In this document: positions 46,217-63,869 of the stretch, one piece after another
How the letters are laid out: each line of letters begins with the position of its first letter
How positions within the stretch are numbered: position 1 is the stretch's first letter
Assembly: GCA_001464965.1 (NCBI GenBank)
Contig: LNEJ01000025.1
Coordinates: 1-64,000, forward strand
Direction of reading: 5' to 3'
From: Gammaproteobacteria bacterium Ga0074134
Lineage (GTDB): Bacteria > Pseudomonadota > Gammaproteobacteria > Ga0077554 > Ga007554
Length of the DNA: 64,000 bases
The notes under the pieces: generated by a model
What the model saw: only the letters and a program-made list of their open reading frames with translations
The model's database searches: none
What the model was told of the DNA's origin: nothing
Made by a program: the position numbers and the translations under genes

Positions 46217-46417
46217 GCGGCTGACTCCGGGATTCTCGCCCCGGCACATGCCTGTGCCGCTGTGCGGCTCCAGGACTTGCCACGCCGCATTCGCTTGCAG
46301 TCCGTGCGTGCACCAGACCATATCAGATCCGTTCGCGGCTTGCGGTATTTATCCAGCAAGGGGAAGAAAAAATGTTTGCGCAGAAAGACCCTCCTGGGTC
46401 CAAGAGCGGCAGCCGCC

Positions 46418-46438
46418 GTAGGGTGCGCCGTACCCATA
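46418..46438. repeat. GTAGGGTGCG repeat, half copy
   Basis: GTAGGGTGCGCCGTACCCAT preserves only the left arm of the repeat found at 18904; the right arm is absent. It lies in the 286-bp gap (46217-46502) before the CusF-like gene, in which no other feature was found. Confidence 0.5.
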
Positions 46439-46502
46439 GATACATTAAAAACAGGCGCACGAAATTTATTGCAGAACTTTTACCCAAAGGAGACCGGATA
46501 CC

Positions 46503-46853
46503 ATGAAAAAAACCTCGTATATGATGCTGCCCGTACTGATCTTGTTTAATCCACCGGTATTTGCCCACGGCGCCAACCACCACAATGCCGCCACGGAATC
46601 TGAGGCAACCCAAGCCGCAGCTCAAGTCCGCACAGGCCAGGGCACGGTCGACAAAGTGGATGTGGCGGCGGGCACCGTCACTTTGACCCGCGATTCGCTC
46701 AAGGGTCTGGGCTGGCCCGACATGGCGATGGAGTACACGGTCAAGGACAAGGCCATGCTGGATAACATCAGGGCCAGAATGAAGGTCGATTTTGAATTGA
46801 CCAAAGAACCCGATGGCACGTTCGTCATGACGCGCATCATCCCGGCCGATTAA
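46503..46853 (+). CDS. cusF: Periplasmic copper/silver chaperone, CusF-like
   Basis: 116 residues: signal peptide (MMLPVLILFNPPVFA), a His-rich start of the mature protein (HGANHHNAA), then a CusF-type OB fold (GQGTVDKVDVAAGTVTLTRD) with the Trp/Met ligand region LGWPDMAMEYTVKD. It would pass Cu(I)/Ag(I) to the CusCBA-type pump encoded just downstream. AAGGAG site before the ATG. Confidence 0.87.
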   Translation: MKKTSYMMLPVLILFNPPVFAHGANHHNAATESEATQAAAQVRTGQGTVDKVDVAAGTVTLTRDSLKGLGWPDMAMEYTVKDKAMLDNIRARMKVDFELTKEPDGTFVMTRIIPAD

Positions 46854-46905
46854 CAGGATGTTGAAAGAGCCCATCCACATGAACAAAGGCATAAAAAGGA
46901 AAATC

Positions 46906-47340
46906 ATGGCGGAGGTCATGACTGTCAACCAGTTTGCCAAGCGGGCTGGCGTGACGCCGCATGTGATTCGATATTACACGCGCATCGGTTTGTTGAAGCC
47001 TTGCCGCCAGTCCGGCAGTGATTACAAACTGTTTGCGGCGGCGGATGTGAAACGGCTGCACTTTATCCATCAGGCAAAAGCCCTCGGTTTCACCCTGGCC
47101 GAGATCGCCGAAATCTTCCATGAGAGCAGCCATGGCAAATCGCCCTGCCCCAGGGTGCGCGAAATCATCCGGCGGCGTATCGACGAAAACCGCTGTGCCC
47201 TGGCTGAGTTGAGGGCGTTGCAACACCGCATTGAAAGGGCGGCGGCTCAATGGGAGGAAATGCCGGATGGTATTCCGGATGGCGATACAGTATGTCATCT
47301 CATCGAATCCCTGAAAGATGTGGAGGTTCGGAAGCGTTGA
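46906..47340 (+). CDS. MerR-family metal-responsive regulator
   Basis: 144 residues from the ATG at 46906, preferred to upstream ATGs (46858, 46879) because AAGGA lies 5 nt before it. N-terminal winged helix (MTVNQFAKRAGVTPHVIRYY), dimerisation helix, and cysteines at PCPRVREII, ENRCALAE and DTVCHLIES that could form the metal site; their layout is closer to CadR/ZntR/MerR-type sensors than to CueR. It probably acts on the two dyad promoters at 47369 and 62788. Lies within the efflux locus. Confidence 0.85.
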   Translation: MAEVMTVNQFAKRAGVTPHVIRYYTRIGLLKPCRQSGSDYKLFAAADVKRLHFIHQAKALGFTLAEIAEIFHESSHGKSPCPRVREIIRRRIDENRCALAELRALQHRIERAAAQWEEMPDGIPDGDTVCHLIESLKDVEVRKR

Positions 47341-47368
47341 GAAACCGGGTGGTTTCAAAGAAGAAGTC

Positions 47369-47399
47369 TTGACCTGTGTGCGACGCACAGGTTTTAAAT
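47369..47399 (+). promoter_or_regulatory. MerR-type promoter with 21-bp dyad, upstream of cusC
   Basis: -35 TTGACC (47369-47374) and -10 TTAAAT (47394-47399) are separated by 19 bp, the lengthened spacer of MerR-regulated promoters. The dyad ACCTGTGTG-CGA-CGCACAGGT (47372-47392) lies in the spacer. A near-copy lies at 62788. Predicted start near 47406. Confidence 0.75.
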
Positions 47400-47477
47400 G
47401 TCGGCAGCAGGTGCAGATGAGGAAGGTGTGACATGTTTTGCATAGTGTGTCCATAGAGGGGATTTTTCGGAGTGAGA

Positions 47478-48755
47478 ATGAGATTCATGTTCGCATGCCG
47501 GTCTCTTTCACTGATTCTGGCGTTCCACTGTGCCACGCCTGCTTTCGCCCGCGATGCCGCAGCGGTCGAGAACCTCGCAAACCTTGTCACGGCTGCGCTT
47601 GCCAACAACCCTGAACTGAAGGCATCGGAGGCGCGCTGGGAGATGTTCAGAAACCGCATCAAACAGGCCGAGGCGCTCGATGATCCGATGTTGATGCTGA
47701 AGATCCAGAATGGCATCGCGGGTGATCCTTTCAACTTCAGGAAGGATCCCATGACCCAGAAGGTGGTCGGCCTCAGCCAGTCTCTTCCCTTCTGGGGAAA
47801 GCGGGCCTTGCGGGGGGAGATGGCGGCGAGGCAGGCCGAGTTCTACCAATGGCAACTGGAGGAACGGAGGCTGGAGCTGAAACGCATGGTGAAGGAATCC
47901 TACTACCAGATCTTCTTTGTTGACAAGACATTGGGGATCGTCGAGAAGAATATAAAAATTCTGGATGACTTCGTCACGCTCAGCAAGACCAAGTATGCCG
48001 TCGGGCAAGGGGTGCAGCAGGATATTTTCAAGGCGCAGGTGGAACGCTCCAGAATGCTGGACATGCAGATCGCTCTCGTCCAGCAGCGCAAGAGCCTGCA
48101 AGCCAATCTTAACGCGCTGCTTTACCGTCCGGCCGACAGTCCCGTCGGTAAAATCCCTGACTTCGAGCCATCCGCCTTTTTGTTGTCCACCTCCGGACTG
48201 ACGGAGGCCGCTGTGGCGAACCGGCCCATTATCAAGGGTTATACCGCTCTTATCGAAAAGGGGCAGGCAGGGCGCAAGCTCGCGCAAAAGGAATACTATC
48301 CCGATTTCAACGCGGCATTCGAGTATATGCAGCGCAATCCGGTGGGCGGCGAAATGGGGCTGGATATGTATGCCGCTGGCATTACTCTTAATCTTCCCGT
48401 CCAGCGCGAACGGCGCTCCGCCATGCTGGCCGAGTCGAATGCGGAAATCTCTATGGCGACCGAAGAGCTTAACGCCCTGGAAAATACCATCAGCTATGGC
48501 GTTGCCGACCTGCTTGCCCAGCTTGAAAAGAGACAGCGCCTGATCGAGCTTTACAAAACCGGCATCATCCCCCAAGCACAACGTTCCCTGGAGTCGGCGA
48601 TCATCGGCTACCGCGTCAACAAGGTGGATCTACTGACGCTGCTCGACAACCGCATGACGCTGTTTAATTACGAGCGTGAGTACTACGACTCGCTGGCGGA
48701 TTACCAGATGAAGCTGGCGCAGCTCGAGGCCATGGTAGGAAAGGAGTTGCAATGA
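47478..48755 (+). CDS. cusC: Outer-membrane efflux channel, CusC/TolC family
   Basis: 425 residues from the ATG at 47478 (GGAG 5 nt upstream), with a signal peptide ending near AFA. Two OEP-type repeats form the trimeric TolC channel: LVTAALANNPELKASEARWE near residue 38 and SLPFWGKRALRGEMAARQAE near 105. No lipobox cysteine follows the signal, unlike E. coli CusC. First structural gene of the efflux tripartite system. Confidence 0.87.
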   Translation: MRFMFACRSLSLILAFHCATPAFARDAAAVENLANLVTAALANNPELKASEARWEMFRNRIKQAEALDDPMLMLKIQNGIAGDPFNFRKDPMTQKVVGLSQSLPFWGKRALRGEMAARQAEFYQWQLEERRLELKRMVKESYYQIFFVDKTLGIVEKNIKILDDFVTLSKTKYAVGQGVQQDIFKAQVERSRMLDMQIALVQQRKSLQANLNALLYRPADSPVGKIPDFEPSAFLLSTSGLTEAAVANRPIIKGYTALIEKGQAGRKLAQKEYYPDFNAAFEYMQRNPVGGEMGLDMYAAGITLNLPVQRERRSAMLAESNAEISMATEELNALENTISYGVADLLAQLEKRQRLIELYKTGIIPQAQRSLESAIIGYRVNKVDLLTLLDNRMTLFNYEREYYDSLADYQMKLAQLEAMVGKELQ

Positions 48756-48810
48756 ACGTCCGGGCAGGCAGGCATGAAGGCGGACGGCCCGTTTTGGAGG
48801 TGAACCCGGA

Positions 48811-50091
48811 ATGAATAAAAGGATCGCAATCGCTCTTGCCATCGCGGCCATCGCCGCCGTGGGGGCAGGATCATACCTGTGGCGCGAAAAAGGCGCCGCG
48901 ACCGGTGAGGCGATGTCCGCGACGCCGCCCGCGCGCCGTGCGGCAGACGGGCAGGCTGGAGCAGAGCGTTCGAACGATGTGGACATGTTGCGTGATGTTT
49001 CATTGTCGCCAGCGCAATTGGTGATGGCGAATGTCGCCACAGTGGAGGCCCGCATGATGCCACTTACCAAGGAGATCAATGCCGTTGGCATAGTCGGCTA
49101 CGATCAGGCCAGGCAGGCGAAGGTCACCGCGTGGGTGGCGGGGCGTATTGACCGGCTCTATGTGAATACTGTCGGCGCCCATGTCTCGAAAGGAGCGCCA
49201 GTCGCCGAGGTGTACTCCCCCGACCTGGTTTCATCGCAGCAGGAATATCTGCTCGCGCTGGGCAGCAGGGAACAATTCAAGGATTCACCGATTCCGTCCA
49301 TTGCCCAGGGCGGCGAGGGGCTGGTGGAATCAGCCAGGCAGCGTCTGAAACTGTTGGGCGTAAAGGACTCTCAGATTGCTGCTCTGGAACGGTCAGGGCA
49401 GCCCACCATCAGGCTACCGGTTTACACCCCACTCTCCGGCACTGTGATCGAAAAGATTGCGTTGGAGGGTCAGTACGTGAATGTCGGCGATCCTCTGTTC
49501 GCCATCGCCGATCTGTCCGTGGTGTGGGTGGAGGTGGAGGTCTATGAAAACGAATTTCCGTTCATCAGGATCGGACAACAGGTGAAGGTCTTTTCCCAAT
49601 CCTATCCTGACAGGACATTCATGGGCCGGGCGGTCTTCGTCTATCCCTTTCTCGAGCCGAAGACGCGGACCGTCAAGGTGCGGCTTGAACTTCCCAATCC
49701 CCGGCATGAGCTGAAGGCGGACATGTTCGTGAACGCCGCCGTGCAAGTCCCGCTGGGTGATGCGATGGCCGTGCCGGTGACGGCGGTATTGGAAACCGGC
49801 AAGCGCCGTGTGGTGTGGGTGGAAAAAAAGCCGGGGATGTTCGAGCCGCGCGAGGTGAATGTCGGGGCCAGGGTCGGAGACCGGTTTCAGATCCTGGCGG
49901 GTCTTCGCGCGGGAGAAAAGGTCGCGGCCTCCGGTGGCTATATGGTCGATTCCGAGTTGCAATTGCGCGGCAGCGCGGGGATGGCGGGCATGGCAGGGAT
50001 GCAGGACGGGAAAAAACCGGATGCCCGGCAAGAGCGTGCCGCTCCGCCACAAGGTGGCGCGGCCATGGGCGGCATGAAGATGAATCAATGA
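48811..50091 (+). CDS. cusB: Heavy-metal efflux membrane-fusion protein, CusB-like
   Basis: Periplasmic adaptor between pump and channel. N-terminal anchor (IAIALAIAAIAAVGAGSYLW), lipoyl/barrel-sandwich (KVTAWVAGRIDRLYVNTVGA), helical hairpin with QQEYLLALGS, beta-barrel (DLSVVWVEVEVYENEFPFI). 426 residues. The C-terminal 40 residues are Met/Gly-rich (GMAGMAGMQDG and AAMGGMKMNQ) and may bind Cu(I)/Ag(I). Confidence 0.88.
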   Translation: MNKRIAIALAIAAIAAVGAGSYLWREKGAATGEAMSATPPARRAADGQAGAERSNDVDMLRDVSLSPAQLVMANVATVEARMMPLTKEINAVGIVGYDQARQAKVTAWVAGRIDRLYVNTVGAHVSKGAPVAEVYSPDLVSSQQEYLLALGSREQFKDSPIPSIAQGGEGLVESARQRLKLLGVKDSQIAALERSGQPTIRLPVYTPLSGTVIEKIALEGQYVNVGDPLFAIADLSVVWVEVEVYENEFPFIRIGQQVKVFSQSYPDRTFMGRAVFVYPFLEPKTRTVKVRLELPNPRHELKADMFVNAAVQVPLGDAMAVPVTAVLETGKRRVVWVEKKPGMFEPREVNVGARVGDRFQILAGLRAGEKVAASGGYMVDSELQLRGSAGMAGMAGMQDGKKPDARQERAAPPQGGAAMGGMKMNQ

Positions 50092-50100
50092 TATTGCGCC

Positions 50101-53100
50101 ATGATCGATAACATCATCGAATATTCGGCACGCAACCGCCTTGTCATCCTGGCGCTCTTCGCGCTGGTCATCGCGTGGGGGGGCTGGGCCGTCTATACCA
50201 CGCCCGTGGATGCCATTCCCGATCTTTCCGATAACCAGGTCATCGTCTTCACCGAGTATCCGGGCCGCGCGCCGCAGGTGGTGGAGAATCAGGTCACTTA
50301 TCCGCTGGTGGTCAACCTGCAAGGGCTTCCCAAGGTCCGCGCAGTGCGCGCCTCGTCGGCCTTCGGTTTTTCCATGATCTATGTCATTTTCGAGGACGAT
50401 GCCGACATCTACTGGGCGCGCACACGTGTGCTGGAGCGGCTCAACTATGCCGCCGCGCTGCTGCCGTCCAATGTGCGGCCTGCCCTCGGGCCGGATGGCA
50501 CGGGCGTCGGCCATGTGTTCTGGTACACCCTGCAGGGCAAGGGCTACGACCTCGAACAATTGCGCACTCTGCAGGACTGGTTCGTGCGCTATCAGCTGAA
50601 CACCGTGCCCGGTGTCGCCGAGGTGGCATCCATCGGCGGCTTCGTGCGCGAATACCAGATCGATCTCGACCCCAACCGCCTATTCGCCTATGGCATCAAA
50701 CTGAGTGATGTGGTCGAAGCGGTAAAGCAATCCAACAACGATGTGGGGGGCAGGTTGCTGGAACAAGCGGATGCCGAATATCTGATCCGCGGCCAGGGGT
50801 ATATCCAATCGAGCCAGGATCTGGAAAACATCGGGGTTGGGGCCGACATGCGCGGCGTCCCGGTCTACATCAAAAACCTCGGGACGGTGCAGCTCGGCGG
50901 GGCCATCCGCCGCGGCCTGCTGGATCTGAACGGAAAGGGGGAAGCGGTCGGCGGCATCGTGGTGATGCGCTACGGCGAGAACGCCAAGGATGTTATCGAC
51001 CGCGTCAAACAGAAGATCAAGATGATCGAACCGGGACTTCCTCCGGGCATCAAAATCATTGCCGCCTACGACCGTTCCGACCTCATCCTGCGCGCCATCG
51101 AGACGCTCAAGCGGGTGCTTGTCGAGGAGTCAGTGGTCGTCTCGCTGGTGGTGCTCATCATGCTGCTGCACCTGCGGAGCGCGCTGGTGATCGTGCTGAC
51201 CCTGCCTATCGCTGTGCTGATGGCATTCATCGCCATGAAATATCTGGGGGTCACCTCCAACATCATGTCGCTCGGCGGAATCGCCATCGCCATCGGCGTG
51301 CTGGTGGATGCGGGTGTGGTGATGGTGGAAAACTGCTATCGCCATCTCTCCGGGCTTGCGCCAGAGGAGCGAGATGAAAAGCGCCTGGAGGTGATCATAA
51401 GCGCGGCAAAGCATGTAGGCCGTCCGATCTTTTTCGCGCAGGCGATCATCATTCTGTCTTTCGTTCCGGTATTTCTTCTGGAGGGCCAAGAAGGCAAGCT
51501 GTTCCAGCCGCTGGCCTTCACCAAGACCTTCTCCATCATCTGCTCGGCGGTGATCGTCATCACCCTGGTGCCGGTGCTGATTTATTACTTCCTGCGCGGC
51601 AGGATGCCACGCGAGGAGGCCAATCCCGTTTCCAGTTTTTTCATCAAGGTGTATACGCCCATCGTCCATTGGGTGCTGAAATGGAAAAAGACCACCATCG
51701 CCCTCAATATCGTGGCGCTCGTCATCGCCGGCCGGCTATTCATGTCCGTCGGCAGCGAGTTCATGCCACCCCTGGACGAAGGATCGCTCCTTTACATGCC
51801 TGTCACGCTGCCCAATATCACCATCAGCGAGGCCAAGCGCATTATCCAAGTACAGAACCGCATCATCAAGACCGTGCCGGAAGTGGACCATGTGCTGGGC
51901 AAGGTGGGGCGCGCCGAGACCTCCACCGATCCCGCTCCGGTCTCGATGTTCGAAAACATCATCATCCTCAAGCCCAAGGAGCAATGGCGGACGGGGGTCA
52001 CCAAGGCCGATATCGTGAACGAACTTGACGGCAAGCTGCAGCAGATCGGCGTGAGGAACGGCTGGACCCAGCCTATCATCAATCGCATCAACATGCTCTC
52101 TACGGGGGTGCGCACCAATCTGGGGGTAAAAATCTTCGGCAAGGATCTCAATGTGCTGAAGGATCTGGCGATTGATGCGGAAAGCATACTCAGGGGCGTG
52201 CCTGGGGCCGCCGATGTGGTCGCCGAGCGGGTCACCAGCGGCAATTACGTGGACATTACGGTGGATCGGGAAGCCGCGGCGCGCTATGGCATCAGGGTCG
52301 GGGATATTCAGGAGGTGATCGAGATGGCGCTCGGAGGTGAAACGCTGACCACCGCCGTGGAAGGCAGAAACCGCTTCCCTATCCGTGTCCGCTATCTGCG
52401 TGAGCTGCGCGACAACATCCCGGTGATCCAGCGTATGCTCGTCTCCGGCATGGAAGGGACGCAGGTTCCGTTATCCCTGGTAACCAAGCTCAAGGTATCC
52501 TCCGGCGCCCCTGAGATCAACAGCGAGGGCGGGCTGCTGCGCACCGTTGTATTCCTGAACGTGCGTGGGCGGGATATGGGCGGCTTCGTCAACGAGGCGA
52601 AGCGCATCCTGGAACAGCAATTGAAACTCCCCGCCGGTTATTACGTCACCTGGTCGGGACAATGGGAAAACCAGGTACGGGCCAAGGCGCGCTTACAGAT
52701 CATTATTCCTGTCGCGGTGCTGGTAATTTTTGCATTGCTCTATTTCACTTTCCACTCTGTGCGTGACGCCGGTGTGGTGATACTTTCCGTGCCCTTCTCG
52801 CTGGTCGGGGGTATCTATCTGGTCTATATCCTGGGATACAACATGTCGGTCGCGGTGTGGGTCGGCTTTATCGCCCTCGCCGGCGTGGCGGTGCAGACCG
52901 GGGTGGTGATGCTGATTTACCTCAACGAAGCGCTGGACAAGCGGTTGTCGCAGGAGTCCGTCACGCAACAAGACATCTATCAGGCTGCCTACGAAGGTGC
53001 AGCGTTGCGCCTGCGGCCAAAATTGATGACTGTCGCGGTGGCCCTCATAGGACTGATCCCAATCATGTGGTCCACCAGCACGGGCGCCGACGTGATGAAA

Positions 53101-53301
53101 CCAATCGCCGCACCGATGATTGGCGGCATCATTTCCTCGGCGCTCAATGTGCTGCTGCTGACGCCGGCGATATTTGTGATGATGAAGTCGTATGATTTGA
53201 GGAGGGGGAAATTGAAACCATTACGCAGAACAGGCGGCTTGCAGCGGGGGATGGAGGTATTCGACAGCGGGACTCCGTCGTCAAAGGAAAGGGAGAAATG
53301 A
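50101..53301 (+). CDS. cusA: Heavy-metal RND pump, CusA-like, with chimeric C-terminus
   Basis: Inner-membrane proton-driven pump of the HME-RND family, 1066 residues, twelve helices. Three methionines sit where the CusA Cu(I)/Ag(I) relay residues are expected (LLYMPVT, PVSMFEN, INMLSTG), and GVLVDAGVVMVENCYRH holds the proton-relay Asp. Residues to about 1040 are normal. The final roughly 25 ([18 protein letters not shown] and a short charged tail) derive from the ATPase beta subunit found at 56249, so the end of the gene is a recombinant. Function is probably retained, since the added tail lies after the last helix. Confidence 0.93.
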   Translation: MIDNIIEYSARNRLVILALFALVIAWGGWAVYTTPVDAIPDLSDNQVIVFTEYPGRAPQVVENQVTYPLVVNLQGLPKVRAVRASSAFGFSMIYVIFEDDADIYWARTRVLERLNYAAALLPSNVRPALGPDGTGVGHVFWYTLQGKGYDLEQLRTLQDWFVRYQLNTVPGVAEVASIGGFVREYQIDLDPNRLFAYGIKLSDVVEAVKQSNNDVGGRLLEQADAEYLIRGQGYIQSSQDLENIGVGADMRGVPVYIKNLGTVQLGGAIRRGLLDLNGKGEAVGGIVVMRYGENAKDVIDRVKQKIKMIEPGLPPGIKIIAAYDRSDLILRAIETLKRVLVEESVVVSLVVLIMLLHLRSALVIVLTLPIAVLMAFIAMKYLGVTSNIMSLGGIAIAIGVLVDAGVVMVENCYRHLSGLAPEERDEKRLEVIISAAKHVGRPIFFAQAIIILSFVPVFLLEGQEGKLFQPLAFTKTFSIICSAVIVITLVPVLIYYFLRGRMPREEANPVSSFFIKVYTPIVHWVLKWKKTTIALNIVALVIAGRLFMSVGSEFMPPLDEGSLLYMPVTLPNITISEAKRIIQVQNRIIKTVPEVDHVLGKVGRAETSTDPAPVSMFENIIILKPKEQWRTGVTKADIVNELDGKLQQIGVRNGWTQPIINRINMLSTGVRTNLGVKIFGKDLNVLKDLAIDAESILRGVPGAADVVAERVTSGNYVDITVDREAAARYGIRVGDIQEVIEMALGGETLTTAVEGRNRFPIRVRYLRELRDNIPVIQRMLVSGMEGTQVPLSLVTKLKVSSGAPEINSEGGLLRTVVFLNVRGRDMGGFVNEAKRILEQQLKLPAGYYVTWSGQWENQVRAKARLQIIIPVAVLVIFALLYFTFHSVRDAGVVILSVPFSLVGGIYLVYILGYNMSVAVWVGFIALAGVAVQTGVVMLIYLNEALDKRLSQESVTQQDIYQAAYEGAALRLRPKLMTVAVALIGLIPIMWSTSTGADVMKPIAAPMIGGIISSALNVLLLTPAIFVMMKSYDLRRGKLKPLRRTGGLQRGMEVFDSGTPSSKEREK
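53122..53280 (+). repeat. Duplicated cusA-3'/atpD segments, copy 1 (deleted form)
   Basis: Bases 53122-53219 are identical to 55832-55929, and 53224-53280 match 56249-56305 with about four differences. In copy 2 the two blocks are 319 bp apart; here they are adjacent, so copy 1 lacks the YHS domain and the start of atpD. Confidence 0.9.
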
Positions 53302-53350
53302 CCAGACGGCACCCGCCAGATCGGTTATTGGTTAACAGCAAGAGGGAATC

Positions 53351-54724
53351 ATGAAGACCTTACGACTATTGCAACACGGTTACGCAGCCGCGCGCAGCGC
53401 TGTCTTGTTCAGTGCGTTTGTCGCCGCCGTCGCACTGGGAATGTATCCGAACGCGGCGCAGGCCGTGCCGAGCATGGCGCGCCAGACTGGCATGCCGTGC
53501 GCCGCCTGCCACACGGTATTCCCCGAACTGACATCGTTCGGGCGCCAGTTCAAGCTGCGCGGCTACAGCATGAGCGTGCCGAAGGACAGGAGCGACTCGA
53601 TCTTCGGCAACGTGCCGATCTCGGCTCTGCTGCAGGTTTCACGCAACACCACCAATAACGTCAGCACGCCCGGGGCCGAGTCCGAGCAGTTCCCGCGCGA
53701 CCGGGAAACCATCGTGCAGGCCGCAGGTCTCTACTACGGCGGCAAGATCACCGACAAGTCCGGCGGACTGGTGCAGTACTTCTACGACGGCATTGAGAAG
53801 AAGTGGGCAATGGAGATGTTCGACGTGCGCTGGGCCGACACGACGACCGCATTGGGCGGCAAGGAGACCATCTTCGGTTTTACCCTGAATAACAACCCGA
53901 CAGTCACTGACATCTACAACAGTACGCCGCAGTGGAGTTTCCCTCACACCGAAACGGCTGCGCTCATGCCGAACGCGCAGACGGCTATCGATATGCGGCT
54001 CGCGGGCCGGGTCGGCGGCCCCAGCGTGTACGCGATGTGGAATGATCTGCTCTACGGGGAGCTGGCCCTGTACCGCACCACCAAAACCGGCGCCTTGCGC
54101 CCGCTCGGCTGGGGCGTCGAAAAGGACGATCTCGTGAGTGGCACCGCGCCCTACTGGCGCATGGCCCTGCAGCGCGATTTCGGCTCGCACTTCTTCTCCG
54201 TGGGCACCTACGGCCTGTCGGCGCGCATCTATACCGACGCCAAGGATCAGAGTCTCGGCACGGACCGCTTCCGCGACTTTGCGATCGACGGGCAATACCA
54301 ATTCACCGGGGGCGATCACCTCGTCTCGGCGCAGGCCACACAGATCCGCGAGAAGCAGAAGCTCGATGCCGCGTTCGCGGCGGGCCTCGCCTCCAACCCG
54401 ACGAATACGCTGCGCACCACGCGGGCCGATGTGCATTACTGGTATAAACGCGCAGTCGGCGGCGGCTTCGGGATGTTCTCGACCACGGGCGATGCCGATC
54501 CCCTCAGATATATGATGCAACCAGTAATGGGCAGCGCCACGGGCAGCCCCAACACCCAGGGCTGGATGATCGACCTGAACTACCTGCCGGTGCAGAGCGT
54601 GAAGCTCGCGCTGCGCTATACGGCGTACACGGAGTTCAATGGCGCGGGCACCAACTACGACGGCTTCGGGCGCAACGCGAAGGATAACAACAGCGTCTTT
54701 TTGCTCGCCTGGCTGATGTTCTGA
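53351..54724 (+). CDS. Haem-bearing outer-membrane barrel protein, Cyc2-like (putative)
   Basis: 457 residues. Signal peptide (FVAAVALGMYPNAAQA, cleavage near residue 38); a small cytochrome region with one c-haem site, CAACH, in RQTGMPCAACHTVFPEL (about residues 46-62) and FGRQFKLRGYS; then about 380 residues of alternating hydrophobic/polar strands ending SVFLLAWLMF, a C-terminal aromatic typical of outer-membrane barrels. This N-terminal monohaem plus barrel plan is that of fused cytochrome-porins such as Cyc2. The CxxCH-to-FGR spacing resembles a wider uncharacterised family, so Cyc2 function (metal oxidation) is only a hypothesis. TGATG overlap with the next gene. Confidence 0.7.
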   Translation: MKTLRLLQHGYAAARSAVLFSAFVAAVALGMYPNAAQAVPSMARQTGMPCAACHTVFPELTSFGRQFKLRGYSMSVPKDRSDSIFGNVPISALLQVSRNTTNNVSTPGAESEQFPRDRETIVQAAGLYYGGKITDKSGGLVQYFYDGIEKKWAMEMFDVRWADTTTALGGKETIFGFTLNNNPTVTDIYNSTPQWSFPHTETAALMPNAQTAIDMRLAGRVGGPSVYAMWNDLLYGELALYRTTKTGALRPLGWGVEKDDLVSGTAPYWRMALQRDFGSHFFSVGTYGLSARIYTDAKDQSLGTDRFRDFAIDGQYQFTGGDHLVSAQATQIREKQKLDAAFAAGLASNPTNTLRTTRADVHYWYKRAVGGGFGMFSTTGDADPLRYMMQPVMGSATGSPNTQGWMIDLNYLPVQSVKLALRYTAYTEFNGAGTNYDGFGRNAKDNNSVFLLAWLMF

Positions 54725-55500
54725 TGACCATGGAACGCACGAATCCTCTGGGGCAGGCGCAAACACTGCGCGAACTGTCCCTCGCCCTGAGAACCCTCTT
54801 CACGGCATTCCTGCTCACGATCGGGTTCGGGTACCTTGCGGCGGTTTTCTACCTTTTTCTCGTGGATATCGATCCGCACTTGAAAATGGGAATGCGGCCC
54901 ATCGCCGGCATCGAGATGAAATATCGCGGCCAGCCATCCGGATCGCGCCTGGAGGCCGCGCTTCGCGGAGCGATGGCGGACAAGCTGCGTCCCGAAGAGC
55001 GCGACGCGATTGTGGGTTGGGTGCGCGGCGGCGCGACGCAAGCCGGTTTCGGGCAGATCAAACCGATCTTGGACAGGAGTTGCACGGTCTGCCACAGCGC
55101 GAAGTCGGGCCTGCCCGTTCCGCCGCTCGACAGCTTCGAGACGGTGGCCAAGCTCGCCGAGACCGATCGCGGCCCGAGTTTCGTGCAACTTGCGCGCGTG
55201 TCGCATGTACACCTGTTCGGCTTGAGCTTCATTTTCCTGCTGACAGGGACGATTTTCACGCTCACTGCTGTGGCGCCGACATTCAAGCTCACCGTGGTGG
55301 CACTGCCGTTCGTGGCGATCTGGGCGGACATCGCCTCGTGGTGGCTCACTCGCTACGAACCGCTATTCGCGTATGTCGTTTTCGTCGGCGGTGCGCTGAT
55401 GGGTGCGGCGCTCGCGGTGCAGATTCTCGTCCCGCTGTGGCAGATGTGGGCGCCGCGCAGCAACGCGACCGCAGCCACGGCACGACCATCCAAATCTTAA
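54724..55500 (+). CDS. Inner-membrane c-type cytochrome, unknown family
   Basis: 258 residues: a helix near residues 22-45 (AFLLTIGFGYLAAVFYLFLV), a periplasmic segment with one haem site CTVCH near residue 120, then three helices (HLFGLSFIFLLTGTIFTL, VVALPFVAIWADIASWW, YVVFVGGALMGAALAVQIL). His residues in SHVHLFGL and before could ligate further haem. Starts inside the stop of the barrel gene (TGATG), so the two are coupled. A plausible route from periplasm to quinone pool, or the reverse; inferred from topology only. Confidence 0.65.
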   Translation: MTMERTNPLGQAQTLRELSLALRTLFTAFLLTIGFGYLAAVFYLFLVDIDPHLKMGMRPIAGIEMKYRGQPSGSRLEAALRGAMADKLRPEERDAIVGWVRGGATQAGFGQIKPILDRSCTVCHSAKSGLPVPPLDSFETVAKLAETDRGPSFVQLARVSHVHLFGLSFIFLLTGTIFTLTAVAPTFKLTVVALPFVAIWADIASWWLTRYEPLFAYVVFVGGALMGAALAVQILVPLWQMWAPRSNATAATARPSKS

Positions 55501-55514
55501 CAAAGGAGCGAAAG

Positions 55515-57851
<2,337 letters not shown>

Positions 57852-57855
<4 letters not shown>

Positions 57856-58145
57856 GCAGCCAGAAACCGGATGGGGCCTTCGATGGAGAAAAACTCAAAA
57901 AGGCCGTGGAACGGCGGGTCGCGCGTATGAAGCAGGCGGATAAGGAACGCCCTACCTTGCTGGCGCAATCCGCCTATATTGGTGTGCTGGGCCTGATCTT
58001 CGTGCTGCCCGTCATCGGCGGCGCTTATCTCGGCCACTGGCTCGACAGCCTGCATGAAGGTTATTCGATAGGCTGGACCTTGAACATGATCATTCTTGGT
58101 CTGGCGATCGGTGCAATGAACGTTTATTTTTTCATAAAGGAATGA
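57852..58145 (+). CDS. atpQ: N-ATPase accessory membrane protein AtpQ (AtpI-like)
   Basis: 97 residues from the ATG at 57852 (ATGA overlap with atpC). Charged N-terminal half, then two helices (AYIGVLGLIFVLPVIGGAYL and WTLNMIILGLAIGAMNVYFF). Matches the AtpQ position in the N-ATPase order D-C-Q-R-B-E-F-A-G. The next gene expected, atpR, is missing. Confidence 0.85.
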
Positions 58146-58410
58146 GAGCCTGTCTATGAATAAATCATCCCTGCGTTGCCGCCCCAAAACACGCCAGGCA
58201 AGGCGCGAGGCGCGAAGTTTGGTTGTTCCAAATGAGCGGCGAGCAACGCCGCATGGCGTGTTTTGGGGCGCAACCCGAAGGGACGGGGCAGGTTTCCCGC
58301 AGTGCGGCGTCACACTTCGCTCATGTGCAACAAGCACACTACGCTCAGCGTTCCTTGCTCTGCGGGAAACCTGCCTCCGTCGCAGGAATGATTTATTCAT
58401 AGACAGGCTC
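58146..58410. mobile_element. MITE-like element, family A, full copy in place of atpR
   Basis: 265 bp with 30-bp terminal inverted repeats (58146-58175 and 58381-58410, one mismatch; outer GAGCCTGTCTATGAATAAAT). No transposase or other coding capacity. It starts one base after the atpQ stop and ends 5 bp before the atpB ATG. A second copy, lacking the left end, lies at 8871-9041. Confidence 0.88.
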
Positions 58411-58415
58411 TAACC

Positions 58416-59102
58416 ATGGCCAACCCCGATATTTTTATTACACCCGTATTCTCCGCCGGTCCGTTCATCATCACCAGCACAGTGGTGGTAACCTGGGGCA
58501 TCATGGCGGTACTGGGACTGACCGCATGGGGTTCGACACGCCGCCTGAGGCTTGATCCTGGGCACTGGCAGGTCGTTGTGGAGGGGCTTGTGCTGGCCAT
58601 CGAAGATGCCATCCGTGCCGTGTTGCCCGACCGGCCCTGCCAGTTGCTGCCCTTTATCGCCACGTTGTGGATTCTCATCGTCGTGGCCAATCTCGTCAGC
58701 CTGATTCCCGGCCTGCGTTCCCCTACCGGCGATTTGTCATTCACCGCCGCGCTGGCGATCCTGGTCTTCCTCGCCGTGCACTGGTATGGCATCAGCACCC
58801 ATGGCCTCAAGAACTATCTGTCCCATTATCTGAAACCGAATCCGCTGTTGCTGCCATTCCATATCATCAGCGAGATCTCGCGCACGCTCGCTTTGGCCGT
58901 CCGCCTGTTCGGCAACATCTTCAGCCTGCAGATGGCAGCGCTGCTGGTGTTGCTGGTGGCGGGCTTTCTCGCGCCGGTGCCGGTGCTTATGCTGCACATC
59001 ATCGAGGCCCTGGTGCAGGCGTATATCTTCGGCATGCTGGCGCTGATCTACGTCGCTGGGGCGATTCAGACTCAACAAGTCAAACATGGAGAGACCGTAT
59101 GA
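58416..59102 (+). CDS. atpB: N-ATPase subunit a
   Basis: 228 residues, about six helices. The essential Arg is in ALAVRLFGNIFSLQMAALL, and the C-terminal helix IIEALVQAYIFGMLALIYV is typical. The ATG sits 5 bp after a repeat element and has no good ribosome site. ATGA overlap with atpE. Confidence 0.93.
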   Translation: MANPDIFITPVFSAGPFIITSTVVVTWGIMAVLGLTAWGSTRRLRLDPGHWQVVVEGLVLAIEDAIRAVLPDRPCQLLPFIATLWILIVVANLVSLIPGLRSPTGDLSFTAALAILVFLAVHWYGISTHGLKNYLSHYLKPNPLLLPFHIISEISRTLALAVRLFGNIFSLQMAALLVLLVAGFLAPVPVLMLHIIEALVQAYIFGMLALIYVAGAIQTQQVKHGETV

Positions 59103-59365
59103 AAGACATGACGTGGTTTGCCCTGGGATCGACTGTAGCCGCAGCGCTGGCCATCGCCATCGGCGCGATGCTGCCGGCCATTGCGATGGGGCGCGCCATC
59201 ACCCAGGCGCTCGACGCCCTGGCGCGGCAGCCCGAGGCTGAAAAGTCGATCACGCGAACATTGTTTATCGGTCTGGCGATGATCGAATCACTGGCCATTT
59301 ATGTCCTGGTGATCGTATTGATCATCCTGTTCAGAAATCCTTTGCTGGAGTATGTGCTCAAATAG
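59099..59365 (+). CDS. atpE: N-ATPase subunit c
   Basis: 88-residue two-helix rotor subunit. Loop ARQPEAEKS; the ion-binding Glu is in MIESLAIYVLVIVLIIL, with adjacent Ser and a Tyr four residues on, as in Na+-type rotors. Helix 1 has IAMGRAI, with Met where Na+-type c subunits usually have Gln or Glu. ATG inside the atpB stop. Confidence 0.92.
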   Translation: MKDMTWFALGSTVAAALAIAIGAMLPAIAMGRAITQALDALARQPEAEKSITRTLFIGLAMIESLAIYVLVIVLIILFRNPLLEYVLK

Positions 59366-59380
59366 CGCTTTTTTCTTAAG

Positions 59381-59551
59381 CCGGATTATTCATGAACAGC
59401 GCCACGAGAGGCCGTGAGGCCATGAAGATGCAAGGCGCGCGACAAAAAATGCGCCCAGGCGTACTTACGGTACGTCGAGTACATTTTTCGAGCGCAACAC
59501 CGCAGATTCATGGTCTTACGGACACGCAGTAGCTGTTCATGAATAATCCGG
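59381..59551. mobile_element. MITE-like element, family B, between atpE and atpF
   Basis: 171 bp with perfect 20-bp terminal inverted repeats (CCGGATTATTCATGAACAGC at 59381-59400; complement at 59532-59551). No coding potential. It separates atpE from atpF, but a good AAGGGG ribosome site remains for atpF. Confidence 0.85.
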
Positions 59552-59582
59552 GTGAAGTACCACCGGCAAAAAGGGGCGACAT

Positions 59583-60332
59583 ATGGAATTCAACTGGACA
59601 ACGTTTGCGCTCGAGATCATCAACTTTCTGGTTCTGCTCTGGATCCTGAAACGCTTTCTTTACAAGCCGGTGATGGATGCCGTCACGCAACGCAGGTCTG
59701 TCATCGAAAAAAGCCTGGCAGAGACGCAGGCAATGCAGGTTGAGGCCGAGTCGCTCAAACGGCAATATCAGGACCGCCTCACCGACTGGGAACGCGAAAA
59801 GGCCGGCTTGCGAACCTCCGTGTTCGAAGAGGTCAACGCGGAGCGCGCACGGTCGATGGCGGCATTGCAAGCCGCGCTGGAACAGGAGCGCGAAAGGAGC
59901 CGCGTGCTGGAGCAGCAGCAGGCGACCGAATTGCGGCGCGCACTGGAAGAAGAGGCCATGGTTCACGCAGGACAGTTTGCCGCTCGCCTGTTGTCCCGCC
60001 TGACCACTATCGAATTGGAAAGCAGAATAGGCGAAGTGGTGCTGGAAGACCTGCCGCATCTTCCCGATGAAAAACTGCAAGCAATACGCGCTGCCTGTCA
60101 GGAACAAAACTCCACCATAAAAGTGACCAGCGCCTACCCCATCGGCGAGTCCCAGCGCAATGCCTTTGTACAAGCGCTCGGTAACCTGGCCGGGAAAGAT
60201 ATTGCGTGCGAGTTCGCACAGGATGGTCGTTTGATGGCAGGGTTCCGCATCGGCATTGGCCCCTGGATTCTGCATGCCAATCTGCTGGATGAGTTGAGAT
60301 TTTTCGGGGAGGCCGCCCATCATGGAAGTTGA
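59583..60332 (+). CDS. atpF: N-ATPase subunit b with delta-like C-terminus
   Basis: 249 residues: one helix ([20 protein letters not shown]), a long coiled coil (about 35-130; [20 protein letters not shown]) and a C-terminal domain (about 140-249; [20 protein letters not shown]) resembling delta/OSCP. Such long AtpF replaces a separate delta gene in N-ATPases, which agrees with the absence of atpH here. Overlaps atpA by 11 bp. Confidence 0.9.
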
Positions 60333-61821
60333 GCAGAATCCCGCCGGCCCTTCCCCCATCGCTGAGCCAGGAGGCTTGTCGCACTACCGGTTCGGCCTGC
60401 GCATTGCCGAGCAGGGAAGCATCCTGTCCATTGGCGATGGCATTGCCTGGGTCAAGGGGCTGCCGTCTGCTGCGATGGACGAGGTCCTCCATTTCGAGGA
60501 CGGTAGCCGGGGGCTGGTTTTCCACCTTGCCGACGACCGGGTCGGCGCCATCCTCTTGCAGCAGACCGGCGCCTTGACCGCCGGTGTCGCCGTTTACCTA
60601 TCCGGCCAACGCCTCGCCATAGCAACGGGCGAAGCCCTGCTCGGACGTGTCATCGACCCCCTGGGTAACGTGCTCGACGGAGGCCCGCCGCCGGAATGCA
60701 GGCATCGGCGCGATCTGGAGGTGCCGTCGCCCCCCATCGTGGCGCGCGATTTCGTGTCTGCCCCCCTTTATACGGGCAACAAGATGATCGACACGCTGAT
60801 TCCTGTCGGCAAGGGGCAGCGGCAACTGATTATCGGGGACAACGCCGTGGGCAAAAGCGCGCTGGCGATCGATACCGTGATCAACCAGAAGGGCAAGGAT
60901 GTCCGTTGTATTTATGTCATCATCGGCCAGAAGCGTTCGAGCGTCGTCAACACCATCGAAACGCTGCGTCGCGCCGGTGCCATGGAACATACTATGGTGG
61001 TCGTCGCCGAAGCCACGGCGATGCCCGGGCTCAAGTATCTCGCGCCGTTCGCTGGCTGCGCCGTGGCCGAGACGTGGATGGGGCAAGGCAACGATACACT
61101 TGTGATTTACGACGACCTGACCACTCATGCCCGCGCTTATCGTGAATTGGCGCTGCTGTTGCGCCGCCCGCCGGGGCGCGAGGCCTACCCGGGCGACATA
61201 TTTTATCTGCATTCACGCCTGCTGGAGCGTTCCACCCGCCTTGCGCCTGCCCATGGCGGCGGCAGTATGACGGCGCTGCCCATCGTCGAAACCGAACAGG
61301 GAGAGATTGCCTCTTATATTCCCACCAACCTGATTTCGATCACCGATGGACAGATCCATCTCGACCAGCGCCTCTTTGCCGGCGGTTTCCTGCCAGCCAT
61401 CAATGTGACCCGCTCAGTTTCGCGCATCGGCGGCAAGGCGCAACATCCGCGCATCAAGCAGGAGGCAGGACGCATGAAGCTCGATTACTTGCAGTTCCTG
61501 GAGCTGGAGGTATTCACCCGGTTTGGTTCGCGCCTGGAGGCTTCCATGGAGGCGAAAATCCGGCGCGGCCGCGCACTGCGCGAAATTTTTAAGCAAGACC
61601 GGCTCTCCCCCCTGCCCATCGAATTTCAACTGTCCTGGATGGTGGCCTTCAACGAAGGGTTATTCGACAACATTGACATCGAAGCGATCCCTCCCTGCCT
61701 GGAACGGATCAAGGCTGGCGTGGAAAACAGCGATCTCGGCCTCGGGGACAGCCGGGAGCGATGGCTGCAAAGCGTTACGGACTGGATGAAAGAGGGAGCT
61801 GACCATGAGCAGACGGCATGA
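60322..61821 (+). CDS. atpA: N-ATPase subunit alpha
   Basis: 499 residues. P-loop [16 protein letters not shown] near residue 176 (GDNAVGKS in place of the usual GDRQTGKT), [20 protein letters not shown], and the Arg-finger region [34 protein letters not shown]-terminal beta barrel with [16 protein letters not shown]. Overlaps atpG by 17 bp. Confidence 0.95.
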
Positions 61822-62656
61822 ACTGGAGCAGCATCTGCAGGTACTGGGTGAAATCAGGGACATCATGAGCGCCATGAAGAATCTTTCATTCATGGAAGTG
61901 CGCAAGCTGACGCGATTTCTCTCCACCCAGCGCAGGGTCGTAGCGAGCATGGAATCCGCGGCAGCGGATTTTCTGGGTTTCCATCCGCATCTTCTGGCGC
62001 GGCAGGAAAATGCCCGGAACGCCTATCTTCTCCTGGGAAGCGAGCGTGGATTTTGCGGTGATTTCAACGAAGCCCTGCTGCTGGCCCTGGAGTCGCACAG
62101 GCAATCGCATCCTGAGGAGCAAGCCGCAGTGATCGTGATGGGATACAGGCTGTCGAACAACCTCGCGGATGATCCACATGTCGCCGCCCGCCTTGACGGC
62201 CCTGCCGTAGTTGAAGAGGTACAGCCGGTGCTGAAGCGGTTGGTGGATGCCCTCGATGCCTTGCAAAATCGGCGCGATTCGTTTCATCCCTTGCGCCTGA
62301 CAGTGTTTCATCATCACCCGGACAAGGCGGAGATAAATGTCTCGGTATTCCAGCCATTCAGGCAATTCGAAGAAAAGACCGCGCATTTTGGACATCCACC
62401 GCTATTGAACCTGCCGCCGACGACGTTCCTGGCCGAACTGGTGAATCATTACCTGTTCGCCGCCCTGCATGAGCTGTTCTACTCTTCGTTGATGGCGGAA
62501 AATGCCCGGCGCCTGCAGCATATGGACAATGCCATCCGCCGTATTGAGAAAGACACCACGGAACTCTCATTGAAAAAAAACAGGTTGCGCCAGGAGGAAA
62601 TCACCGAGGAAATAGAGGTGATCATGTTGAGCGCGGAGGCAATGAAGCTGCAATGA
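61805..62656 (+). CDS. atpG: N-ATPase subunit gamma
   Basis: 283-residue central stalk: N- and C-terminal coiled coils ([39 protein letters not shown]) and a Rossmann-like middle ([18 protein letters not shown]). Last gene of the ATPase operon. Ends 7 bp before a repeat element. Confidence 0.93.
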
Positions 62657-62663
62657 TTGCTTA

Positions 62664-62752
62664 CAGAACCTCTGATTTATTCAGAGGCTCCCCGGCACAG
62701 GGACGTGTCGTACTCTGAGAATACCAAGACGGAATTATTCAGAGCTTCCTTA
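62664..62752. repeat. MITE-like element, family G, copy 3 (inverted, short)
   Basis: 89 bp in the opposite orientation to 15368: CAGAACCTCTGATTTATTCA at the left, ending GGAATTATTCAGAGCTTCCT, with the middle of the longer copies missing. It closes the ATPase transcript. Confidence 0.8.
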
Positions 62753-62787
62753 CTTCATTTTGGGGAGTGGTTTTCGAAGCAGCGGGC

Positions 62788-62818
62788 TTGACCTGTGCGC
62801 AACGCACGGGTTTTTAAT
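62788..62818 (+). promoter_or_regulatory. MerR-type promoter with 21-bp dyad, upstream of PilZ gene
   Basis: -35 TTGACC (62788-62793) and -10 TTTAAT (62813-62818), spacer 19 bp. Dyad ACCTGTGCG-CAA-CGCACGGGT (62791-62811) matches the one at 47372 in 17 of 21 positions. Predicted start near 62825. Likely drives the PilZ-DUF2934-small protein-copA block. Confidence 0.7.
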
Positions 62819-62856
62819 ATCACTCTGCGGGCATACGTTTTCACGAAGGATGGTTC

Positions 62857-63138
62857 ATGGAACACCGTTGGAGCATGCGCCAGCCAGGAGAGGGCGAAGT
62901 GACAATTTGTTATCTCGGCCAGTGTTTTTCAGCGTGTAGCATATTAAATATCAGTTCCGATGGAATGCTTATCGAGATACCAGGAATACCTCTACCCTGT
63001 GGCGCCTTGGTCGAGCTGACCTTCGATGTTCCCGGCATGGGAGCGCGCCGGTTGCGGGGATTGGTGGTGCACCGTGCAGGACAGGATGCCGGGGTCATGT
63101 TCGTGGATGACGGCCCCGTGGTGCCGGATATGGATTGA
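62857..63138 (+). CDS. Small PilZ-domain protein
   Basis: 93 residues forming a PilZ-like beta barrel: RWSMRQPGEGEVTICY, then CSILNISSDGMLIE, then RLRGLVVHRAGQDAGVMFV. The N-terminal RxxxR c-di-GMP motif is present only in altered form (HRWSMR), and the D/NxSxxG motif reads NISSDG. It may bind c-di-GMP weakly or not at all. First gene behind a MerR-type promoter. Confidence 0.75.
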   Translation: MEHRWSMRQPGEGEVTICYLGQCFSACSILNISSDGMLIEIPGIPLPCGALVELTFDVPGMGARRLRGLVVHRAGQDAGVMFVDDGPVVPDMD

Positions 63139-63207
63139 AGGTCAGGGAGATCAGCATCATGGTTTTTGGCAGTGTCGGGCAATTGTACTTTTACTTTTGA
63201 GGGAGAC

Positions 63208-63474
63208 ATGAACATGACAGACCACAATGAAGTATCGACCAAGAAATCCGCATTGCGGAAACCGGCGAGCCGGGCGGCGGCCAAGAGTATACCCGCCGGG
63301 AAAGAGCACGGTGATGCGTCGCGTTGCGATCCCGTTTCCGCCGAGGAGCGGCAGCGGATGATCGCCACGGCGGCGTATCTCCGGGCCGAACGCCGCAATT
63401 TCGAGGCTGGCCGCGAGCTCGAAAACTGGCTGGAGGCCGAGGCGGAGATTGATCGGCAGCTTGCCTGCGGGTGA
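63208..63474 (+). CDS. DUF2934 family protein
   Basis: 88 residues from the ATG at 63208 (another ATG at 63214 is better spaced from GGGAG). Lys/Ala-rich, probably disordered first half; then a short helical DUF2934 motif (MIATAAYLRAERRNFEAG, then LENWLEAEAEID). Function unknown; common in chemolithotroph and stress-related loci. Confidence 0.75.
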   Translation: MNMTDHNEVSTKKSALRKPASRAAAKSIPAGKEHGDASRCDPVSAEERQRMIATAAYLRAERRNFEAGRELENWLEAEAEIDRQLACG

Positions 63475-63583
63475 GCCGTGGTCACGGTAGCGTGCGCTAT
63501 GCGCACGGGAAGGTCATATGGTGTGTGATCGTGCGCACGCCATACGACTGATGGATTTTCAGCACCATGAAGAGGTTCCGGAT

Positions 63584-63793
63584 ATGCTTGCGATAATGGG
63601 CGTGATGATGGTGTTAGTGGTTGTCGGCCTTTTAGGCTCCGGCCATCACTCCATGATGGGAGGCCACAACAAGGAGAACCGTAAAGAAGAGTCGGTGATG
63701 GACAATCCCGATAAAAAACCTTGCACGCAGTGTCCGTCTGAACAAAAGACGGAAAACGGACAAGGTGGTGGCGCGCCTGAGGAAAAGAAATGA
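63584..63793 (+). CDS. Small membrane protein with His/Met and CxxC ligands
   Basis: 69 residues from the ATG at 63584; the frame is open upstream to 63518 but the AGAGG before 63584 and the immediate transmembrane helix (MLAIMGVMMVLVVVGLLG) favour this start. The helix is followed by HHSMMGGH and a hydrophilic tail with CTQC. Similar short proteins accompany copper P-type ATPases. Role in metal handling is inferred. Confidence 0.6.
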   Translation: MLAIMGVMMVLVVVGLLGSGHHSMMGGHNKENRKEESVMDNPDKKPCTQCPSEQKTENGQGGGAPEEKK

Positions 63794-63869
63794 GGCCTAC
63801 AACGGATCAAGCGATTCGCCTATTTCACGTTTAGTGAATTCCGATGAACGTACCTGAAAGGAACAGGCC

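Follow-up and report, generated by a model that had tools for sequence, protein, structure and literature searches.

Transformation of Streptococcus pneumoniae can leave partial duplications (merodiploidy) of about 100–900 kb, which form between pre-existing repeats (PMC3784515). On a smaller scale, homology-facilitated illegitimate recombination and orphan 3′ fragments have been described in T6SS immunity arrays (PMC5361080) and in E. coli conjugation (PMC3240628), and chromosomal structural change in starving E. coli is discussed together with microhomology-mediated template switching (PMC3161906). A further point of reference is the N-type ATPase operon of Burkholderia pseudomallei, which has the order D-C-Q-R-B-E-F-A-G and is extra to the housekeeping F-type operon (PMC5376962).

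Here we describe a locus in a 64,000-nt window (the whole stretch of DNA that was analysed) in which, with a probability that we put at roughly 0.87, an insertion scar is preserved: a cytochrome cassette sits between duplicated pieces of a gene junction that later decayed by deletions. As in pneumococcal merodiploidy, incoming DNA leaves duplicated host sequence whose copies are free to decay, but the duplication here is only about 0.7 kb and involves no known pre-existing repeat (PMC3784515). As in the T6SS arrays and E. coli conjugation, new genes are placed beside displaced fragments of an old junction, but the displaced ends there come from different alleles, whereas here both flanks come from one junction (PMC5361080, PMC3240628). 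Template switching of the kind discussed for starving E. coli could give an insertion and a flanking duplication in one event (PMC3161906); our search for a donor locus found none. Finally, the adjoining ATPase operon resembles the N-type operon in that atpD and atpC lead, an atpQ-type gene comes next and the set is probably extra to the F-type operon, but it differs in the N-terminal YHS domain on AtpD, in having no atpR seen between atpQ and atpB and in its adjacency to cusCBA (PMC5376962).

A gene junction on both sides of a cassette

We compared the window with two draft genomes, G002 from the same genus (L031/L033, JAKFXX010000039.1) and G005 from another genus of the family (L032/L034, SBBG01000108.1), with a further genome of the same genus (G003), and with the best 80 loci from a scan of GTDB species genomes. 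The features are as follows.

46380–63847: island of cusCBA, the cytochrome cassette and an N-type-like ATPase operon, 17.4 kb; absent from the matching flagellar locus of G003
50101–53214, + strand: conserved part of cusA, CusA/CzcA RND pump (TIGR00914)
53104–53219, + strand: copy 1 of the cusA 3′ block, of which 98 bp are identical and 116 bp match at 97%
53220–53301, + strand: extra CusA C-terminal tail of 26 residues, read as an atpD remnant; the same remnant lies behind an intact cusA stop in G005
53302–55813, + strand: inserted cytochrome cassette of about 2.5 kb, with three ORFs (Pfam); not between cusA and yhs-atpD in L035 and L037
53351–54724: cassette ORF, cytochrome-porin-like, 457 aa
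54724–55500: cassette ORF, membrane cytochrome, 258 aa
55515–55811: cassette ORF, small cytochrome c, 98 aa
55814–55929, + strand: copy 2 of the cusA 3′ block, in frame with YHS-AtpD; its left joint, TGACC/ATCGCC (slash at the joint), is also in G002
55911–55924, + strand: candidate replacement start signal, AGGAGG at 55911–55916 and then TTG at 55922, in frame with YHS-AtpD
55931–56089, + strand: YHS metal-binding domain (PF04945) and linker fused to AtpD; the relatives' protein starts here, with MAIDPVCGM
56090–57448, + strand: atpD, beta subunit of an N-type-like F1Fo ATPase (PF00006)
56245–56513, + strand: source, inside atpD, of the copy 1 remnant, in two pieces (56245–56304 and 56487–56513)

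CusA scores 1,141 bits against TIGR00914, above the curated cut-off of 701, and its gene is under purifying selection (dN/dS 0.05–0.09 among the window, G002 and G005). The initial annotation had reported a 98-bp identity, an atpD match with about four differences and an extra 319 bp in copy 2, and each of these figures was reproduced. The blocks 53122–53219 and 55832–55929 agree at 98 of 98 positions, and the homology reaches leftward to 53104/55814, where it spans 116 bp at 97%. The stretch 53224–53280 matches 56249–56305, within atpD, at 53 of 57 bp (mismatches at 53235, 53255, 53256 and 53279). The gap between the two blocks measures 319 bases in copy 2 and 4 (ATTA) in copy 1.

The atpD piece of copy 1 gave a local alignment score of 95, and none of 200 shuffles scored higher than 27, which excludes chance. 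The bases after 53279 come from a second atpD stretch at about 56487–56513; within the window alone this match is weak, with a score of 20 against a shuffle maximum of 24, but in the orthologous G005 remnant it is 21 of 21, with a score of 42, where 200 shuffles reached at most 27. The CusA-tail remnant is, in sum, the homologue of 56245–56304 joined to that of about 56487–56513, with the intervening 182 bp deleted; the window and G005 share this deletion. Judging by these alignments, the entire CusA tail beyond KLKP, SSKEREK included, is most likely derived from atpD. The window has cusA–atpD′ to the left of the cassette and cusA′–yhs-atpD to its right, and on each side the cusA 3′ end and pieces of atpD derive from a single stretch that was continuous before the insertion.

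Relatives with the same arrangement and with an empty site

The order cusA, cytochrome cassette, yhs-atpD recurs in the independently assembled G002 (L033) and G005 (L034). This bears on the possibility that the two copies are an assembly chimera or a collapsed repeat, with contigs joined at a repeat. A perfect 98-bp repeat in a draft genome of 80 contigs is a typical site for assembler error, but two further assemblies show the identical order, G005 has its own diverged atpD remnant, and the flanks of copy 1 and copy 2 in the window differ; we regard an artefact of this kind as extremely improbable.

The relatives differ from the window in what they have retained. In G005, cusA ends in KPSGIKH*, and about 14 bases further on lies the atpD remnant, in which the homologue of 56229–56304 is followed directly by that of 56487–56513; the cusA block of copy 2 has been lost, and yhs-atpD starts from an SD and ATG of its own. 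In G002, cusA ends in ...KLKPSGIKH*, no remnant of atpD follows it, and the cassette breaks off after its first gene; copy 2 of the cusA block is kept, together with a further partial copy, and again ends in KPSGIKH*, and a separate yhs-atpD with SD and ATG follows. The left joint of copy 2 is common to G002 and the window, and the right joint of the copy 1 remnant is common to G005 and the window, so the duplication around the cassette predates their separation. No relative carries the CusA tail without atpD, a combination that the initial annotation had named as contrary to its reading.

In G002 (L031, 8183–8560), copy 2 of the cusA tail has been partly re-duplicated around a short repeat-like insert. 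From this re-duplication and the truncated cassette, we conclude that the cusA–atpD junction is a rearrangement hot spot.

Outside the lineage, 7 of the best 80 loci (L035–L039, L050 and L053) have a complete cusCBA close upstream of such an atpD. Cassette-free cusA–yhs-atpD junctions are found in L035, where the stop-to-start gap is at most 34 bp, and in L037, where it reads TAGCGATG; the cassette and the repeat are absent from both. As cusA of the cassette-free relatives is only about 52% identical, the empty site is defined by gene order, not base by base. In relatives, CusA ends in ...KLKPSGIKH* and the next gene starts SD-ATG-GCTATCGAT; the native AAGGAG..ATG of yhs-atpD is present in G002, G005 and L035 and absent in the window.

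These comparisons revise the first proposal for how the locus arose. Duplication of a cusA–YHS–atpD junction around the cassette is borne out by the cassette-free junction in L035 and L037 and by the duplicated order in G002 and G005, but the yhs part of the left duplicate would have to be assumed, no trace of it surviving in any genome. Likewise, copy 1 did lose sequence, as proposed, but in at least three steps instead of a single internal deletion, and two of these are already present in G005, whose cusA keeps its own stop. Nor is copy 2 the intact ancestral junction that it had been taken for: it lacks the cusA stop codon as well as the SD–ATG start of yhs-atpD, both of which are kept in G002.

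Old copies that were probably made alike again

Over 96 bp, the two copies in the window differ at no position. The window differs from G002 copy 1 at 5 of 96, from G002 copy 2a at 12 of 96 and from G005 copy 1 at 9 of 96 positions, and the two copies of G002 differ from each other at 7. The 98-bp identity is not the sign of a young duplication, because the copies predate the lineage split. Being older than that split and yet different at 0 of 96 positions, they must have been homogenized later within the window lineage, probably through gene conversion; the pattern of sequence distances suggests that conversion may have run from copy 1 to copy 2.

A literal first reading would instead have an intact copy 2 duplicated onto the cassette's left side, only in this genome, with 319 bp lost in one step. 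It accommodates the 98/98 identity, and one 319-bp gap covers the two window copies taken alone. However, the cusA′ block and left joint occur in G002, the atpD remnant and right joint occur in G005, and copy 2 is itself altered relative to both genomes, which makes such a recent, simple repeat very improbable.

A mobile island and its cassette

The 17.4-kb block as a whole behaves as an island moving between genera, with recent horizontal transfer. In G003 (L184), the counterparts of window positions 46379 and 63848 abut within about 150 bp; in G002 the island occupies the same place as in the window, and in G005 it lies on another contig than the flagellar locus. Synonymous divergence between the window and G005 is 0.22–0.27 in cusA, atpD and the cytochrome gene, compared with 1.04 in rpoB and 0.87 in the housekeeping atpD; between the window and G002 it is 0.15–0.21 in the block, compared with 0.31 and 0.36 in the same two genes.

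The island also contains smaller elements. A MITE-like element with 31-bp inverted arms lies between atpQ and atpB (58146–58411); it is absent at this spot in G002 and G005, has a couple of dozen more copies, complete or partial, in the genome to which the window belongs and is also found in G002 and G003. A long imperfect palindrome with 26-bp arms lies between atpE and atpF (59375–59557); G002 lacks it at this position, and a single relative was found, on G005:C164, at 79%.

Within the cassette, the 457-aa protein has a single CXXCH whose surroundings come near the Cyc2 iron-oxidase motif, which has AXPXFAR[Q/K][T/Y] ahead of CXXCH and PXL behind (PMC8406198). Its own motif, AVPSMARQT-GMP-CAACH-TVF-PEL, has PXL and departs from the Cyc2 motif at one position (M for F), so that a Cyc2-like cytochrome-porin is possible on the basis of this motif. 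The AlphaFold model, built from too few sequences, has a pLDDT of 27, and a fused beta-barrel porin cannot be read from it. A search of solved structures with this protein gave no meaningful match. A PHROGs search gave no matches.

Our search for a cassette donor recovered, for the 457-aa protein, nothing beyond one paralogue (47%, on G005:C146) and homologues that are distant. The family of the 258-aa protein is common in the class (63 of 369 genomes, best 56%). A plasmid origin of the cassette was considered and rejected, the 258-aa protein being without a match in plasmids. No donor with the cassette joined to the junction was found outside the lineage.

Order of events

Because intermediates survive in relatives, the steps can be partly ordered. 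Arrival of the cassette and duplication of the junction, about 0.7 kb, would have been one event, and yhs would once have been part of the left copy and then have been deleted. The likeliest route may be two template switches during break repair, which we favour because no ready-made donor is needed. We rejected a transposon target-site duplication, since about 0.7 kb is far too long, well above the usual length of such duplications.

Our second choice is single-crossover (Campbell-type) integration of DNA bearing the cassette and a piece of the junction, or transformation with a ready cassette–cusA′–yhs-atpD fragment. Either would yield direct target repeats on both sides of the insert and would suit a block that moves between genera; partial duplications on transformation (PMC3784515) and one-sided homology-anchored insertions (PMC3240628, PMC5361080) are known. 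This route is possible, but it calls for a donor that already had the cassette linked to the junction, and the donor search found none outside the lineage.

After the insertion, which on our preferred reading came about by template switching, the left atpD′ copy decayed by deletions, of which two are common to G005. In the window lineage, one further deletion took the cusA stop, so that the atpD remnant is read as the 26-residue CusA tail. In copy 2, a deletion took out the cusA′ stop along with the SD–ATG start of yhs-atpD, which fused 41 cusA codons in frame. Both window deletions start at the same cusA base, within one base (AAACC/, at 53219 and 55929). Two unlinked deletions do not account for this common start, which points to an interaction between the copies.

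Consequences for the two proteins

The 26-residue CusA tail is hydrophilic and replaces an end that is unconserved in relatives. As it would lie in the cytoplasm, we take the tail to be probably neutral and a function for it to be unlikely.

For YHS-AtpD, the native start, MAIDPVCGM, is gone, and the cusA′ fragment supplies AGGAGGGGGAAATTG in frame (55911–55924). Use of the TTG at 55922 would rescue YHS-AtpD as an almost native protein. The alternative rescue would be the ATG at 55808, which overlaps the stop codon at the end of the last cytochrome gene; a start there would place a hydrophobic helix ahead of YHS.

We also weighed the idea that the fusions are in use, that is, that the CusA tail, the cusA-derived helix on YHS-AtpD or both have been selected, for example as a means of anchoring the beta subunit in the membrane or attaching it to the Cus pump. 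Both fused reading frames are uninterrupted, the head of 41 residues contains a hydrophobic helix (19 residues with a mean hydropathy of 2.1), and YHS-AtpD adjoins cusCBA in every genome that has it. However, neither fusion occurs in G002 or G005, the CusA C-terminus is unconserved in relatives, the good internal start AGGAGG-GGGAAA-TTG would yield a near-native protein, and homogenization accounts for the sequence identity. Selection for the fusions is unlikely in our judgement, and we continue to read them as products of the scar.

A YHS domain on an N-type-like beta subunit

The YHS domain, which is of the copper type, scores 41 bits against PF04945, above the gathering cut-off of 30.3, and its cysteines C7, C30 and C34 are invariant in 7 sequences. 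Pairwise dN/dS is mostly 0.14–0.44 in the YHS part, which is constrained, though less so than AtpD, where values of 0.04–0.08 indicate purifying selection. The N-type model TIGR03305 is the best-scoring one for the beta subunit, though its 602.6 bits fall below the curated cut-off of 752; the general atpD model TIGR01039 gives 584.5, above its cut-off of 462.9. In the operon, atpD, atpC and atpQ were assigned by models and atpB, atpE, atpF, atpA and atpG were read from ORFs; a second atpD is on G000:C48. Between atpQ and atpB (58143–58416) no atpR is seen, and G002 and G005 likewise run straight from atpQ to atpB.

The YHS-AtpD fusion (55931–57448 in the window) occurs in 6 of the 80 loci (L033–L038), each time downstream of cusCBA; the remaining 74 lack it. 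Among the matches listed for a sample of 369 genomes from across the class, those that spanned the YHS-AtpD junction came from G000 and G002 only. An AlphaFold model of YHS-AtpD, for which there were too few sequences, has a pLDDT of 37, with the YHS part alone fair. We found no literature in the open library on a link between YHS and ATP synthase or on a YHS-AtpD fusion.

A speculative and rather doubtful extension is that YHS-AtpD is a metal-responsive rotary ATPase subunit, in which a copper-type YHS on an N-type-like catalytic beta subunit is co-inherited with CusCBA and metal binding would tune assembly or the pumping of ions so as to drive efflux. In this genome, the scar might also add a cusA-derived membrane helix.

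Meaning of the scar and of the fusion

The scar itself is ordinary in kind. It is a well-preserved case of how an insertion can duplicate a gene junction and of how residual DNA then becomes, through deletions, an extension at either end of a protein. For annotators, the CusA C-terminus and the AtpD N-terminus in the window are best treated as scars. The by-product, YHS-AtpD, could matter more than the scar: the presence of this conserved fusion next to cusCBA in MAGs of Gallionellaceae, Nitrosomonadales and Rhodocyclales suggests, in a form open to testing, that an accessory rotary ATPase is linked to the efflux of heavy metals.
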